A stretch of 51,078 nt of DNA from a virus. The notes beneath the pieces were generated by a model, which worked only from the letters and a program-made list of their open reading frames with translations, ran no database searches and had not been told where the DNA came from. Position numbers and translations under genes: made by a program. Below are positions 27,094 to 46,092 of this stretch, in pieces (the stretch's first letter is position 1; each line of letters starts with the position of its first letter). Location of the stretch: the IMG/VR virus record IMGVR_UViG_3300036830_000098, positions 1 to 51,078 of that record; one strand, written 5' to 3'.

Positions 27094-27121
27094 TGTACAC
27101 ACAGGCCCTAGGGACTGTCAA
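27094..27121 (-). promoter_or_regulatory. Early promoter with CCCTAGGG operator
   Basis: Minus strand TTGACA (27121-27116) followed after 16 bp by TGTACA. The spacer carries GTCCCTAGGG, the palindrome of the 27842-28126 array. Downstream lies the AACGCTGGAGAG leader. Almost base-for-base the mirror of the rightward promoter at 28069-28096. Confidence 0.5.
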
Positions 27122-27267: not shown

Positions 27268-27372
27268 TCAGGCGGCGTCCCGCAGAACAATCGAAGGGCC
27301 ACCCATGATGTACGTCCAGTGCACCCCGTCGTGCGAAAACAAAATGACGCCTTTGTAAATTCTAAATCGCAT
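27268..27372 (-). CDS. 34-aa hypothetical protein
   Basis: ATG 27372 overlaps the end of the upstream gene. The leader GGAGAAACGTA is the same as that of the following 42-aa gene. Encodes a small beta-rich peptide (Phe-Arg-Ile-Tyr-Lys-Gly-Val-Ile-Leu-Phe; His-Trp-Thr-Tyr-Ile-Met-Gly-Gly). Unknown function. Confidence 0.55.
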   Translation of the reverse strand: MRFRIYKGVILFSHDGVHWTYIMGGPSIVLRDAA

Positions 27373-27841
27373 TACGTTTCTCCGTTTTCTCGACCCTGCG
27401 AGCGTACAACAGCGAGGTTTCGGTGTCCATGCCGAGCAACCAGGCCAGCTTGCCCAGCTCGTACCCCTCGCAGATAGCGTCCCAGTGGCTCACGGCCGCT
27501 CTGCCGTTGATTGGCGAGGCAACTATGGCGCATCGTAGCGCCGACGCGGCAGGCTCGTCAGCAGCCGCCAGAACGCGCTGCTTTCGCTTCGTGCGTTCGA
27601 AATCCGATCGAGCGAGCTGACCGATCCTCACCAGATCGTCAACCACACTTGCGAGCAATCCGCCGCACAACTCTGCCAATTCGATAGGCAATCCGGCTCG
27701 CCTGCAAGCCGCGGTCAACGTAGGCGATTCGAGCCGTACCAGCCGTCTAATCCGTTCCTGGTGCTGCAAAGCCGTCTCCACTGCGATCTGTGGAAGCCGT
27801 TGCGCTTGGTCCTGTTGACTTGCCGTAATTGTGAGGTCCAT
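27362..27841 (-). CDS. Hypothetical 159-aa helical protein, first leftward early gene
   Basis: Starts at ATG 27841 next to the operator array, so it is the first gene of the leftward unit. Helical throughout, Leu/Ala/Arg-rich, with possible HTH-like segments around 95-105 and 130-150 (Leu-Gly-Lys-Leu-Ala-Trp-Leu-Leu-Gly-Met-Asp-Thr-Glu-Thr-Ser-Leu-Leu-Tyr). No membrane span. The position would suit a regulator of the array, but no family is recognised. Confidence 0.6.
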   Translation of the reverse strand: MDLTITASQQDQAQRLPQIAVETALQHQERIRRLVRLESPTLTAACRRAGLPIELAELCGGLLASVVDDLVRIGQLARSDFERTKRKQRVLAAADEPAASALRCAIVASPINGRAAVSHWDAICEGYELGKLAWLLGMDTETSLLYARRVEKTEKRNAI

Positions 27842-28126
27842 CCTTGGACCATAAGGTCCATTCCCCTTCCCGTCTAGGGTCCCAGCGTAGCGACTAGGGA
27901 CCCATCCTTAGGGAAGGGAAGTGGGACTGTCTATAGGACTGTCCCTATCCATAAGGATGGACATCCTAAGGAGCGTCCATTGATCCGTCCTAGGACTGTC
28001 CTACGGACATCCTTAAGTATGTCCATTGATAATCCTTAAGGACGGCTTTTATTAGACTAAAGTATAAGTTGACAGTCCCTAGGGAGTGTGTATTGTGCAT
28101 CCTTAGAGACAACGCTGGAGAGTGAA
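27842..28126. promoter_or_regulatory. Array of TCCYTARGGA-type palindromes between divergent early units
   Basis: This 285-bp non-coding stretch is packed with short palindromes. Clear copies: TGGACCATAAGGTCCA (27845-27860), TCCTTAGGGA (27905-27914), TCCATAAGGA (27948-27957), TCCTAAGGA (27964-27972), GTCCTAGGAC (27987-27996), GTCCTACGGAC (27998-28008), TCCTTAAGTA (28010-28019), TCCTTAAGGA (28033-28042), TCCCTAGGGA (28076-28085) and TCCTTAGAGA (28100-28109). GTCCATTGAT occurs twice and GGACTGTC three times between them. This looks like a multi-site operator region controlling both directions; an origin is an alternative. Confidence 0.7.
28069..28096 (+). promoter_or_regulatory. Rightward early promoter
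   Basis: TTGACA (28069-28074), 16-bp spacer containing the perfect palindrome TCCCTAGGGA, TATTGT (28091-28096). The operator lies inside the promoter, so a bound protein would block it. Transcription would begin just before the 28127 gene. Confidence 0.6.
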
Positions 28127-28340: not shown

Positions 28341-28694
28341 ATGAGCATCCACTGCAACACAGAGCCGCAAGAACTGGTAGATTACCTGCGCGAAATGTAC
28401 ATACAGTACGGCGCCAAACCACAGATGATTCAGGCGATCGACAATCTGTATGATGCACTGGGCGCGGAATACGAGCTAAAAAAAGTCGGCGAAGAACTGG
28501 TGCAGGTCGAGGAAGAAAGGGACGACTTGCGTGAGGAACTGAGACTAGCAACCGAATCGCTGGAACTGGCGATCGACACAATAGCCAGCATTGCCAAGAG
28601 CCCGGCGGATGCTGTGGACATGATCAATATTAACGAACTGCACCAGTTGCGCATGCAACTTGGAAACAGCAAGAGAGTGCTTGACAATCCCTAA
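28341..28694 (+). CDS. Coiled-coil hypothetical protein
   Basis: 117 residues, started at ATG 28341, one base after the previous stop. The centre (about 50-95) is a strong acidic coiled coil (Val-Glu-Glu-Glu-Arg-Asp-Asp-Leu-Arg-Glu-Glu-Leu-Arg-Leu). No zinc or membrane motif. Second gene of the rightward early unit; unknown function. Confidence 0.7.
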   Translation: MSIHCNTEPQELVDYLREMYIQYGAKPQMIQAIDNLYDALGAEYELKKVGEELVQVEEERDDLREELRLATESLELAIDTIASIAKSPADAVDMININELHQLRMQLGNSKRVLDNP

Positions 28695-28703
28695 AGACAG
28701 GCG
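28681..28703 (+). promoter_or_regulatory. Possible secondary promoter/operator (TTGACAATCCCTAAAGA)
   Basis: TTGACA followed by TCCCTAAAGA reproduces the promoter-operator module of 28069 and 27121 at the end of the coiled-coil gene. The -10 hexamer is poor, so activity is doubtful. Confidence 0.35.
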
Positions 28704-28903: not shown

Positions 28904-29040
28904 CCAACGCGCAAGCCGCCAAAGCAAGTCAAATCTGCGAAAAGGCGTTGCAACTGATCGACGCATTGCAGAAAAATCTCGACGAAATGAAAGCCGCACA
29001 AGATCAATATGAACGCTGGCTGAAGGAGCGCGAGAAATGA
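28900..29040 (+). CDS. 46-aa helical hypothetical protein
   Basis: Coupled at both ends by ATGA overlaps. Entirely helical, with Lys/Glu/Gln heptads (Lys-Ala-Leu-Gln-Leu-Ile-Asp-Ala-Leu-Gln-Lys-Asn-Leu) that would form a coiled coil. Unknown function. Confidence 0.6.
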   Translation: MTNAQAAKASQICEKALQLIDALQKNLDEMKAAQDQYERWLKEREK

Positions 29041-29438
29041 GCATGACCAACGTCAGTCCATGCTACACTTGCAAGTGCGATATGTGGATACCGACGCCAC
29101 TGTACGAAGCGGCGCAACGCGGCAAAGGCAAAATTTCTTTTCACTGTGCTTACGGGCACTCAAACGTGTTCTGTGTCGGGGACAACGAAGAAACTAAATT
29201 ACGCCGCGAGCGCGATCGGCTCCAACAGCGGCTTGCGGAAAAAGACGATGAAATTAAACGCCAACGCGACATGCGCGAAGGGACTGAGCGCCAGCTATCC
29301 GCCACGCGAGGCGTCGTAACCCGCATTAAAAATCGCGTCGGTCATGGTGTCTGCCCATGCTGCAACCGGACGTTCGGTGACCTGGCCCGGCACATGCACA
29401 CGAAACATCCGACATATGCGGCCGAAGCCGCTGAATAA
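29037..29438 (+). CDS. Zinc-finger protein with C2H2-type finger and coiled coil
   Basis: 133 residues. The N-terminal part has Cys-Tyr-Thr-Cys-Lys-Cys and Cys-Ala-Tyr-Gly-His (zinc-ribbon-like). The middle (about 52-92) is an Arg/Glu coiled coil. The C-terminus has Val-Cys-Pro-Cys-Cys-Asn-Arg-Thr-Phe-Gly-Asp-Leu-Ala-Arg-His-Met-His-Thr-Lys-His, a C2H2-type finger (Cys-x2-Cys-x10-12-His-x4-His). C2H2 fingers are rare in bacteria outside Ros/MucR proteins but occur in small phage proteins. Probably binds nucleic acid; target unknown. Confidence 0.75.
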   Translation: MSMTNVSPCYTCKCDMWIPTPLYEAAQRGKGKISFHCAYGHSNVFCVGDNEETKLRRERDRLQQRLAEKDDEIKRQRDMREGTERQLSATRGVVTRIKNRVGHGVCPCCNRTFGDLARHMHTKHPTYAAEAAE

Positions 29439-29636: not shown

Positions 29637-30011
29637 ATGCGCGACCGCTCCGAATGGATACGCGGTGAAACCGGGCCACAGAAAATCGGCACCAGGAGTT
29701 ACAAGCGGCTCACTGAGTTTTCGCGACCATGCGCGACGTGCAAGCAACCGTTCTCGATCTTCGTCACTGAGAAGATTGCCGAGGGGTTGGCCGATTCCAA
29801 TAATTTCGGTCTGAGGAATTGCGAGGTACACCGACGCGGCGCCGCGCCCATCGATAGCGAAGAACTCGAATCGCTACGTACAAAGGACCGCGTTATGGCC
29901 GATGAATTGTCGGGCCTCTATGCGACGATCCGCGATTTGAAAGAACGGTTGGCGAAAGCTGAAGCGCGTCCAGCGCCAAAAGGCTTGACGTTTCCTTGGG
30001 GCCAGCGTTAA
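29637..30011 (+). CDS. Cys-containing coiled-coil protein with C-terminal FPW
   Basis: 124 residues. It has Cys-Ala-Thr-Cys and, 28 residues on, Cys-Glu-Val-His: a possible C3H zinc site. Then follows a coiled coil (about 75-108) and a Pro/Ala linker into the end Thr-Phe-Pro-Trp-Gly-Gln-Arg. The terminal Phe-Pro-Trp after a linker is the same short motif found at the ends of the primase-helicase, methyltransferase and others. Unknown function; the tail looks like a docking peptide. Confidence 0.7.
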   Translation: MRDRSEWIRGETGPQKIGTRSYKRLTEFSRPCATCKQPFSIFVTEKIAEGLADSNNFGLRNCEVHRRGAAPIDSEELESLRTKDRVMADELSGLYATIRDLKERLAKAEARPAPKGLTFPWGQR

Positions 30012-30079: not shown

Positions 30080-32137
30080 ATGCCGCCATTTCCAGATAGC
30101 ATCCAATCGTTCTGGGTACAAGCCCAGGCCCGGGGACTGTTCCCGCTCGCCATAGCACGCGGGAGCAAGGCCCCGATCGGCGAAGGCTGGAACGTATGGA
30201 CACATCCTATCGCTCATCCGGGTGCCGGCGCTGTTGGGCTGCGCTGCGGCGACGGCGGATTATCGGCGTTTGATTGCGATCATTCCGACCCGGTGATGGC
30301 GCAACGCCTGCTGGGTGCATTCCGTTCCGTGCTGGGTCCGGATATTCCGGTACGCTGGGGCCGCGAACCGCGTTTTCTGATTCCTTATTTTCTTACCGAT
30401 GCGCCCGTACAGGGCCGTACATTCTCATTCCCGGACGGCCAAAAATTGCAACTCATGGGCGGTCAGTTCATTGCCTTTGGCGAGCACAAAGATACAAAAC
30501 AACCCTACCGCTGGGAAAATTGGGGGGTTGACTGGCCGCGAATAACGACGGCGCAGCTCCAGCAAATACTGACCGAAGTGCCGTTAAAAGCCGGGACCTC
30601 ATTGCGGTTTTCGGCCGAACATGAAACCGCCAGCGTCGATGAGCTAAAGTACGCCGCGCCGCAGACGCAAGATGAATGGCAAGCCGGCCGCGACGCCGCG
30701 ATGCGCTATCTAGGGCTGCTCAAGCATGAACTCATGGGCAGGACGGAGGGGCGCGGCTCGACCATTTTCGCAATCGTCGGCGTGCTGAAATTTGCCGAAC
30801 GTAACGGCATGTGCACACGGCGCGAGATCGAGGACGCCATAACCGACGCCGGGCACAGCCTGGATGAAGGGCTCGGCGGTCGCACGCTCGGCCAGGAAAT
30901 CCAGCGCCAGGACGAACTGCCGGTGCTGCGCGGTAACCTCATCATGCAAGCGATCATGTCACGCCGCACGATTCTGCAAGGGCTGGCCGACGCGCAGAAA
31001 ACGCCCGCGCTGGCGGCGCGCACGGGTTTTGAAATCTCATTGGAGGACCACACTAACGAGCTGCCTTGGCTGCTTTACCAGCGCATTCTATGTGGCGAGG
31101 TACATTTTTTCACCGGGCATAGCGGCTCGGGAAAATCAACCGTCATCACTGACATGGCTATCAACTACCTTAAAGGAACTGCCTGGCTTGATGCCGACAT
31201 CGAGAAAGCAAACGGTCATGTTTTGTGGATCGCGTCCGAAGATGATTATGGCACGGAACGGCGCGTGCGGCATTTACTCAGACAGGAATCGGACGCGCGC
31301 AATCTGGCATCGCGCTTTCACTTAATCCGCGGTATCAACGAACCGATGGCGTTCGAACAGCAATGTGTCGCGCAGACTCAGGCGATGGCCGCAATGGGCA
31401 TGCGCGTCGATATGATCGTACTCGATACGTGGGGTGCGTCGGGCTTGTGCTTTGCGGACAACGACACCGAAGCCGTGTTGAAAGCCATGTTTATCCTGAA
31501 GAACGTAGGCAAGCGCACCGCTGCCGCCGTACTGGTAACGGACCACTTGCCGCTCGGCAACGAAGAAGCATGGCAGAAAGGCAACGGCGCCAAATCAGGC
31601 AATAGTGGTTTTGTCTACCGCATCACGGCCAATCGAAAAGACATGGTATCGATCGATTGTGGCAAGGCGCGCGGCGCCCCGAAAGCGAAAAGTTTCCTTG
31701 GTCGAATCGTATCCGAAAACTACGGCAGGGACATAAAGGGCCGCACAACCACGGTTAACGTATTCAAGCGCGACCTGATGCCGTCGCAGACTGAAAAAGA
31801 ACAAAGCGTCGTTATGCGTCTGGCCGCGGTGCTGCCTGGCGTCGTTGCCGCCGGCATGGATGCCTTGCGTTCGGGCTCCATTGTCAGATTCGATAGCGTG
31901 GCCGCCGACATCGGCCATGCGGTCAAAGGCGAAGTGCCAGGCTACGTCATAACCAAGGACGCCGCGTTGAAAACATTTACCAAAGATGGCATGCAAAGCT
32001 TGCTAAACAGTGGTCATCTCCGTACAATGCATGGAGTCCCGTTTCTTGCTGTTTTCGCGCCGTCAGGATCGACGAAAGAGAGTCTGATAATTCCTTGGGC
32101 AATCGAGCCGCCAAAAGTGGAGACTTTTCCGTGGTAG
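30080..32137 (+). CDS. Primase-polymerase fused to RepA/DnaB-type helicase
   Basis: 685 residues. The N-terminal ~170 is a bifunctional primase/polymerase (PrimPol) domain: Phe-Pro-Leu-Ala near 21, Lys-Ala-Pro-Ile-Gly-Glu-Gly-Trp, and Asp65-x-Asp67 in Ala-Phe-Asp-Cys-Asp. From about 330 is a RecA-like ATPase with Walker A at 346-354 (Gly-His-Ser-Gly-Ser-Gly-Lys-Ser-Thr), Trp-Ile-Ala-Ser-Glu-Asp-Asp, and Walker B in Met-Ile-Val-Leu-Asp-Thr-Trp. It should prime and unwind at the phage fork. The protein ends Val-Glu-Thr-Phe-Pro-Trp, the FPW motif as its last three residues. Confidence 0.85.
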   Translation: MPPFPDSIQSFWVQAQARGLFPLAIARGSKAPIGEGWNVWTHPIAHPGAGAVGLRCGDGGLSAFDCDHSDPVMAQRLLGAFRSVLGPDIPVRWGREPRFLIPYFLTDAPVQGRTFSFPDGQKLQLMGGQFIAFGEHKDTKQPYRWENWGVDWPRITTAQLQQILTEVPLKAGTSLRFSAEHETASVDELKYAAPQTQDEWQAGRDAAMRYLGLLKHELMGRTEGRGSTIFAIVGVLKFAERNGMCTRREIEDAITDAGHSLDEGLGGRTLGQEIQRQDELPVLRGNLIMQAIMSRRTILQGLADAQKTPALAARTGFEISLEDHTNELPWLLYQRILCGEVHFFTGHSGSGKSTVITDMAINYLKGTAWLDADIEKANGHVLWIASEDDYGTERRVRHLLRQESDARNLASRFHLIRGINEPMAFEQQCVAQTQAMAAMGMRVDMIVLDTWGASGLCFADNDTEAVLKAMFILKNVGKRTAAAVLVTDHLPLGNEEAWQKGNGAKSGNSGFVYRITANRKDMVSIDCGKARGAPKAKSFLGRIVSENYGRDIKGRTTTVNVFKRDLMPSQTEKEQSVVMRLAAVLPGVVAAGMDALRSGSIVRFDSVAADIGHAVKGEVPGYVITKDAALKTFTKDGMQSLLNSGHLRTMHGVPFLAVFAPSGSTKESLIIPWAIEPPKVETFPW

Positions 32138-39418: not shown

Positions 39419-40054
39419 ATGGCAAAAAAGACGAAAATCGAGCCGCAGGGCTTCTTGGTGGGATATGCGCGAGTTTCGACCCAAGATCAGAATTTGGACC
39501 TCCAACTTGATGCCCTGCGAAAAGCAGGCGTCAAAGAGGACAATCTGCACGTCGAAAAGATATCCGGCGCGGCTTCCAAGCGCCCGGCGCTCGATCTCGC
39601 CATCATGGACCTACGCGAGGGCGACACGCTGCTGGTCTGGCGGCTCGACCGCTTCGCCCGGTCCATGCGCGACCTCTACGCCAGGCTCGATCGGGTCTAT
39701 GCCAAGGGCGCGAAGTTCCGCAGCCTTACCGAGTCCTTCGACTTCGACACCTTCACGGGCAAGTTCGTCCTCGGCATCCTTGGACTGGTGGCCGAGCTGG
39801 AACGTCAGATCATCGCGCACCGCACAAAGGCGGGCATCGACACATGGAAGGCCAAGGGTAAGGGCCAGTGGGGCCGACAGGCCATTCTCAGCGAGGCCAA
39901 GGTCAAGCAGGCTGGCAAGATGCTGAACAAGGGAATGAGCGGGCCGCAGGTGGCGAAGCACTTCAAGGTTTCGACACCGACCATATATCAGCACTATGCG
40001 CTGAACCGTTCTGGCCGTGGCCTGCGGTTCATCCGTAAGACCAAACCAAAGTGA
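39419..40054 (+). CDS. Serine recombinase (resolvase/invertase family)
   Basis: 211 residues. The catalytic domain has Gly-Tyr-Ala-Arg-Val-Ser-Thr near 14-20 (nucleophile Ser), Asp-Gln-Asn-Leu-Asp-Leu-Gln-Leu-Asp-Ala-Leu, and Val-Trp-Arg-Leu-Asp-Arg-Phe-Ala-Arg-Ser near 73-82. A long helix follows, then a C-terminal helix-turn-helix (Ser-Gly-Pro-Gln-Val-Ala-Lys-His-Phe-Lys-Val-Ser-Thr-Pro-Thr-Ile-Tyr). These enzymes resolve or invert DNA between short sites. No paired site flanking an invertible segment was found, apart from the 28-bp-arm inverted repeat at its promoter. Could resolve genome multimers or mark an acquired island. Confidence 0.85.
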   Translation: MAKKTKIEPQGFLVGYARVSTQDQNLDLQLDALRKAGVKEDNLHVEKISGAASKRPALDLAIMDLREGDTLLVWRLDRFARSMRDLYARLDRVYAKGAKFRSLTESFDFDTFTGKFVLGILGLVAELERQIIAHRTKAGIDTWKAKGKGQWGRQAILSEAKVKQAGKMLNKGMSGPQVAKHFKVSTPTIYQHYALNRSGRGLRFIRKTKPK

Positions 40055-45838: not shown

Positions 45839-45885
45839 ATCCTAGGCCCTTGCAATGTATGACATTTAAGCCTAGTCTAGCATCC

Positions 45886-46092
45886 ATGTCGGCGGAACGC
45901 AAAAAATCCACAATGATTTCGGCCAGACTGCCCACGACGCTCGTAGAACGCGCGGACTACGTAACTCGCAACATAGACAGCAAAACCGTCAAAAATCGGT
46001 CCACGGCCGTCCGCGCTGCCCTGGAAGGGTGGCTTCCGGCGCAGGAGGACCGGCTTCGGGAGCTAGGAATCCTTGCGAAAAAAGCCCGTTAA
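45886..46092 (+). CDS. Ribbon-helix-helix DNA-binding protein
   Basis: 68 residues from ATG 45886. Met-Ile-Ser-Ala-Arg-Leu-Pro (strand), Leu-Val-Glu-Arg-Ala-Asp-Tyr-Val (helix), Asn-Arg-Ser-Thr-Ala-Val-Arg-Ala-Ala-Leu-Glu-Gly-Trp-Leu (helix) form a CopG-like fold with an extra C-terminal helix. The upstream 47-bp divergent gap contains GTATGACA; it may bind there and at the other copies. Overlaps the VRR-NUC start by 20 bp. Confidence 0.65.
   Translation: MSAERKKSTMISARLPTTLVERADYVTRNIDSKTVKNRSTAVRAALEGWLPAQEDRLRELGILAKKAR

Follow-up and report, generated by a model that had tools for sequence, protein, structure and literature searches.

The window analysed here is an IMG/VR virus record of 51,078 nucleotides whose termini overlap by 127 bases, so that the genome is closed, with a size of about 50.95 kb. 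The region at 27842-28126 is situated between the leftward gene p159 (27362-27841, minus strand) and a rightward early unit, and it contains a putative operator array (27845-28109, no strand assigned) composed of TCCYTARGGA-type sites, GTCCTAGGAC, and a TGGACC-n4-GGTCCA element, together with a promoter-like sequence designated P_R (TTGACA-16-TATTGT, 28069-28096, plus strand). Within the rightward unit, 1.8 kb to the right of the array, lies the gene p124 (29637-30011, plus strand), directly followed downstream by a primase-helicase gene with Prim-Pol and AAA domains (30080-32137, plus strand). A C2H2-like finger protein with weak Pfam matches is encoded at 29037-29438 and is related to phrog_33336 (E 2e-24). 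The leader of p159 carries a G+C-rich stem-loop (27864-27918, minus strand; CCCTTCCC...GGGTCCC...GGGACCC...GGGAAGGG), and in the corresponding leaders of 30 genomes folding is on average more stable than in shuffled sequence (mean z -2.1), with exceptions. The p159 model matched nothing in the PDB at E ≤0.001, and Rfam gave no matches.

No close cultured relative of the window phage was found. Loci matching p159 initially numbered 21, all in phages, and 32 with alignment, the first 21 included. In a search of 84,980 species genomes of bacteria and archaea, p159 gave 117 pattern hits, none of them confirmed, and neither p159 nor p124 matched any of 50,697 phage records. The comparison set consisted of 30 genomes (the window and 29 others). 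Outside it stand G012, the record behind locus L016 with the same match as L015/G011, and G031, in which the region is absent; L014, a 98-kb record, was covered through its locus, which resembles that of L013. Some tests cover 29 genomes because the profile did not recover p124 in the truncated contig G019. Gene order and replication genes are common to the window and the 19 relatives compared. The annotated genes that the family shares include no integrase, and no prophage matching the family was found. A serine recombinase/DNA invertase gene at 39419-40054 of the window has no counterpart in the 19 relatives compared.

The motif TCCYTARGGA occurs with no more than one mismatch at 27905, 27948, 28010, 28033, 28076, and 28100. 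Three ten-bp palindromes are perfect (GTCCTAGGAC at 27987, TCCTTAAGGA at 28033, and TCCCTAGGGA at 28076), the spaced palindrome TGGACC-ATAA-GGTCCA lies at 27845-27860, GTCCATTGAT is repeated at 27975 and 28021, and GGACTGTC occurs at 27924, 27936, and 27993, with one further copy outside the array at 27112. The sites and repeats listed by the first-pass annotation, including the perfect palindromes, were all recovered in place. Its count of at least ten palindromic sites requires a different emphasis: the sites are present, but the number of palindromes is unremarkable, since near-palindromic ten-mers (at least 4 of 5 pairs) number eight against 4.3 in shuffles, and 135 of 2000 shuffles reach eight. 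It is the shared motif that stands out, with six occurrences in 285 bp against a mean of 0.14 in shuffles, none of 2000 shuffles reaching six; this density is attained by one of 892 overlapping genome windows, possibly the array itself. Palindromicity being barely in excess, the signal resides in the common motif and not in its symmetry. Helical phasing of the site spacing was not significant overall, and runs with 19-20-bp spacing are seen in G027 and G030. Literature searches for TCCCTAGGGA and for operator arrays returned no paper, which is no evidence that the system is undescribed.

The motif also occupies early promoters. The site at 28076-28085 lies inside the spacer of P_R, as had been noted beforehand, and two copies not listed earlier were likewise found in promoter spacers: GCCCTAGGGA at 27105-27114, in the promoter upstream of the leftward gene 27064-26867 (-35 box TTGACA at 27121-27116; element 27105-27121, minus strand), and TCCCTAAAGA, starting at 28688, in a second rightward early promoter (-35 box and site at 28681-28697, plus strand). 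Like the P_R site, both begin one base after a perfect TTGACA. Across the genomes with a class-A p124 N-domain, 16 of 37 exact sites of this type (class A) start 0-3 nt after a TTGACA-like -35 box, the usual gap being 1 nt, where chance would give about 0.029 per site. By eye, the P_R spacer site is present in all seven genomes with a class-A array; an automatic -35 rule recovers it in three of them (the window, G004, and G011). The promoter-located class-A sites track the class of p124, in G013 at up to about 15 kb from p159, and no dispersed promoter sites were found in classes other than A.

The p124 protein of the window, 124 aa long and not remarked on in the first-pass annotation, comprises a CxxC-n26-CxxH N-domain, a coiled coil, and a C-terminal FPW tail. 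In the family, an N-terminal domain of 60-70 residues (CxxC plus Cxx[H/C]R) is followed by a middle part that varies and is mostly coiled coil, and the protein ends in a PW tail; W7, C32, C35, C62, R66, P120, and W121 are invariant in 33 aligned copies, and the cysteines suggest that the N-domain binds zinc. The AlphaFold2 model is confident (pLDDT 90.9). At full length it matched no solved (PDB) or viral structure at E ≤0.001, and its VIA structure rows cover mainly the coiled coil. Pfam, PHROGs, and NCBIfam provided no family name for p124; phrog_10675 and phrog_3671 matched a few members weakly, and RepA_N was not among the Pfam matches of seven p124 proteins up to E 1. The distance between array and p124 ranges from 0.2 to 2.2 kb, and p124 is one of the first genes rightward of the array in many non-A genomes, a placement that fits self-control.

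The gene p159 was found in all 30 genomes, each with the region to its right in the same position, and the sequence of this region falls into groups. The motif of the window occurs in the corresponding region of seven genomes, a GTAAATTTAC-like motif in about ten, and the others have motifs of their own. The palindromes themselves are thus kept in 7 of 30 genomes, and elsewhere other repeated motifs vary in step with p124, so that the lack of conserved palindromes in relatives, named beforehand as a refutation, applies only superficially. Generic palindrome discovery in single genomes was weak outside classes A and B, and the motifs are ill-defined for classes B2, C, D, E, and F. No gene confined to motif-A genomes was found (20 genomes). 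When array similarity, measured by shared 6-mers, was compared with protein identity and core-genome identity was partialled out, p124 reached a partial r of 0.644 (406 genome pairs), and the other 22 of the 23 families remained at or below 0.150, the value of the runner-up, the primase (RHH protein 0.017; p159 0.018). With the array trimmed of p124 coding sequence, the N-domain alone gave 0.665 and the C-terminal part 0.414 (0 of 2000 permutations each), so that the latter is less coupled than the N-domain but not uncoupled; the primase gave 0.232 (22 of 2000 permutations). The correlations of the C-part and the primase indicate that physical linkage contributes.

Motif and N-domain class correspond closely. 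The class-A counts are based on the motif set beforehand by the first-pass annotation. Among 29 genomes, exact TCCYTARGGA was present in 10 of 10 members of N-domain cluster 3 (class A) and in two of the other 19, G016 and G017. G016 was later found to carry a class-A p124 copy, which brings the tally for 30 genomes to 11 of 11 against 1 of 19 (Fisher 2e-7, kinship ignored); the exception, G017, has a single class-A site on a 21-kb contig without a class-A p124 copy. Over 501 kb, class-A genomes contain 37 exact sites, counted after dropping one end copy of a site duplicated in G016, and the others one in 895 kb, and a reversed-motif control yielded none. GTRAATTYAC is found in 9 of 13 genomes of N-domain cluster 1 and in 0 of 16 others, the four lacking it being among the more divergent members; the division of this cluster into class B (9 of 9 with the motif) and the remainder (0 of 4) was made after the counts were known. 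In cluster 2, GTCYTARGAC occurs in three of five genomes and elsewhere once, in the window itself. One new p124 genome, L151, has a divergent N-domain (at best 57% identical to that of G003) and none of the three class motifs as exact sites; by eye it bears its own AGATATCTAT-like repeat, and since its region is not nearest to that of G003 by 6-mers, it provides no sharp test. As far as sequence comparison can show it, a change of motif among the relatives goes with a change of the N-terminal domain of p124.

Exchanges between closely related genomes point to the same pair of elements. In the 2.7-kb stretch that runs from p159 past p124, G001 and G004, whose core proteins are 94% identical (957 aa compared), differ mainly in two blocks: the array (relative positions ~0-294), and the N-domain of p124 together with its upstream edge (~1254-1605). 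The roughly 960 bp between the blocks retain 83-100% identity per 60-bp block, and two smaller dips are seen, one at the p159 5' end and one past p124. The C-parts of the two p124 proteins are 91% identical and the N-domains 44%. G025 and G026 (96% core identity) also differ at the array and the N-domain, with a longer mixed stretch between, and this pair is less telling because the replaced stretches are not cleanly separated. Four genomes in which array and p124 do not match, G013, G016, G018, and G024, each have a second p124 gene: second copies turned up where the mismatch predicted them. G013, G018, and G024 combine a class-A p124 and class-A promoter sites, yet have a foreign-looking array, and G016 is the reverse case. 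The array-proximal second copy lies 267-350 bp from the start of the p159 match and belongs to the group of the array. That of G013 shares 92% identity with G020 in the N-domain and 32% in the C-part; the array of G020 resembles that of G013, and the two phages are distant on the core tree.

Taken together, these patterns make it very probable that the array consists of binding sites for p124, and that p124, as its cognate binder, most likely represses its own and other early promoters seems a reasonable, if less secure, reading. Two N-domains, joined via the coiled coil, would bind each ten-bp palindrome. As p124 accumulates after infection, it would fill the array and the sites in the early-promoter spacers, and bound p124 would block RNA polymerase and shut off P_R, the source of p124 itself, p159 probably being silenced as well, along with other early promoters. 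Since one site lies between the -35 and -10 boxes, where a block to RNA polymerase is the simplest effect, p124 can be read as a self-limiting repressor of early genes, and repression is the role that we somewhat favour as its main one. Specificity residing in a small swappable domain would allow lineages to switch array and domain together, perhaps as an escape from cross-repression when relatives or parasites co-infect. A common partner would dock on the conserved PW tail; a simple repressor does not need such a tail, which counts against repression.

The binders originally suggested for the array were an RHH protein (45859-46092) and the 159-aa protein. In their favour, RHH proteins commonly recognise short operators in tandem, and p159 borders the array and ends in a helical stretch that could bind DNA. 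Neither protein covaries with the trimmed array (partial r -0.017 for p159; 0.051 for RHH, 596 of 2000 permutations), as the p124 N-domain does instead; moreover, p159 is almost identical in G001 and G004, whose arrays are unrelated, and the RHH strand keeps M-S-R, positions that we take to be contact residues, across motif classes. With partial correlations near zero, both were rejected as array binders, and a role for either is highly improbable. Joint swapping of array and p124 through closeness, without functional coupling, would be helped by their separation of only 0.2-2.2 kb and would agree with the partial correlation of the C-part and primase with the array, but it does not account for the G001/G004 exchange, which affects two blocks with conserved DNA between them, for promoter class-A sites that follow the p124 class far from p159, or for the second p124 copies found where a mismatch predicted them; we consider it very unlikely as well.

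The first-pass annotation had likened the region to a multi-site repressor region or an iteron-like origin. Multi-site protein binding is well supported, and both readings stand. The origin alternative is kept alive by the conserved PW tail, which points to a common partner. As the main rival, the array would be the phage replication origin and p124 its initiator, with the N-domain on iteron-like sites, the PW tail recruiting replication machinery such as the adjacent primase-helicase, and the promoter sites serving autoregulation. The array region keeps its position in 30 of 30 genomes, all 33 aligned copies have the PW, and in several genomes 65-117 bp separate p124 from the primase match that follows it. 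A precedent exists in Vibrio PLE satellites (PMC8263062), in which an intergenic ori with semi-palindromic iterons varies together with the RepA_N DNA-binding domain of RepA, the C-terminal domain of RepA is conserved, and the pair has been swapped repeatedly, much as seen for p124 and the array. TTWTNCACA is dense in the array regions (11 in ~13.5 kb against 40 in ~1.4 Mb), but no more than 7 of 30 regions contain these DnaA-like boxes, the window not among them, and AT-rich motifs inflate the count. The cumulative GC skew has its minimum at the array, but fourfold-site GC skew of leftward genes lying with and against the fork is nearly equal (0.067 vs 0.055, 11 closed genomes), and as transcription diverges at the array, gene strand explains the minimum. 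The GC-skew mapping proposed earlier therefore gave no independent sign of an origin, and the absence of a fourfold-site replication signal lowers this reading. The sites are also short, irregularly spaced, and located in promoters, and in G013, G018, and G024, which have a class-A copy, the 400 bp next to p159 contain no exact site for it. Overall, an origin with p124 as initiator appears rather unlikely.

In lambdoid phages, the N-domain of the O protein binds repeats specifically and its C-domain recruits the replication machinery. As with p124 and the array, the O/ori iterons are near replication genes and engaged by an N-domain. The O/ori system is thus a further point of comparison (PMC7466680); the lambda ori lies inside gene O (PMC6022878), whereas the present array is intergenic and overlaps promoters too. 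Unlike the PLE RepA (PMC8263062), p124 has no reported RepA_N match, its sites are ten-bp palindromes that occur also in early promoters, and the p124/array pair is carried by the phage itself and not by a satellite, the likeness being one of sequence pattern. In Cluster A mycobacteriophages, motif and repressor distances correlate between phages, and the stoperators are, like the array, many copies of one short motif, some of them in early promoters; stoperators, however, are distributed genome-wide and predominantly one-way and the phages make lysogens (PMC6550527, PMC9283540), whereas the present sites are mostly palindromic and clustered in early control regions, and neither a family-wide integrase nor a matching prophage was found. 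By analogy, p124 and its array would work like a Cluster A repressor/stoperator system or like swapped RepA/ori modules; because RepA_N is not among the matches and lysogeny is not established, we file them in neither class.

More broadly, and tentatively, p124 may found a so far undescribed family of zinc-domain modules that set DNA specificity in phages that appear to be lytic, with at least seven array-matched specificities in 30 genomes, array and N-domain pairs that are exchanged, sometimes two systems stacked, and a heteroimmunity-like incompatibility without lysogeny. From natural variation alone, a family unnamed in the libraries searched gains a likely partner, a DNA code, and a role open to testing, and the natural two-block swaps offer ready domain boundaries for specificity exchange. 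If p124 is a repressor in lytic phages, an immunity-like conflict without lysogeny is suggested; if the array is an origin, PLE-type origin swapping would extend from a satellite to phages themselves.

Several other elements were recorded in the same genomes. The RHH protein is present in 27 of 30, its strand reading SAR, SGR, or SVR by lineage. The exact DnaA box TTATCCACA occurs three times in the 30 array regions, in those of G017, G019, and G024, and 10 times elsewhere in the genomes. A leader/ribosome-site element, CGCTGGAGAG, is conserved upstream of 28127, 26867, 26723, and 26277 in the window and of many early genes of the relatives, irrespective of array class, and it is often accompanied by TACGTACATCGAAACG, placed between promoter and start. 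Immediately before the -35 box of P_R, a conserved TGTAACATTTCGTGAT-like element was seen by eye in G004, G011, G027, G028, G030, and L151; common to several array classes, it is possibly a host factor site.
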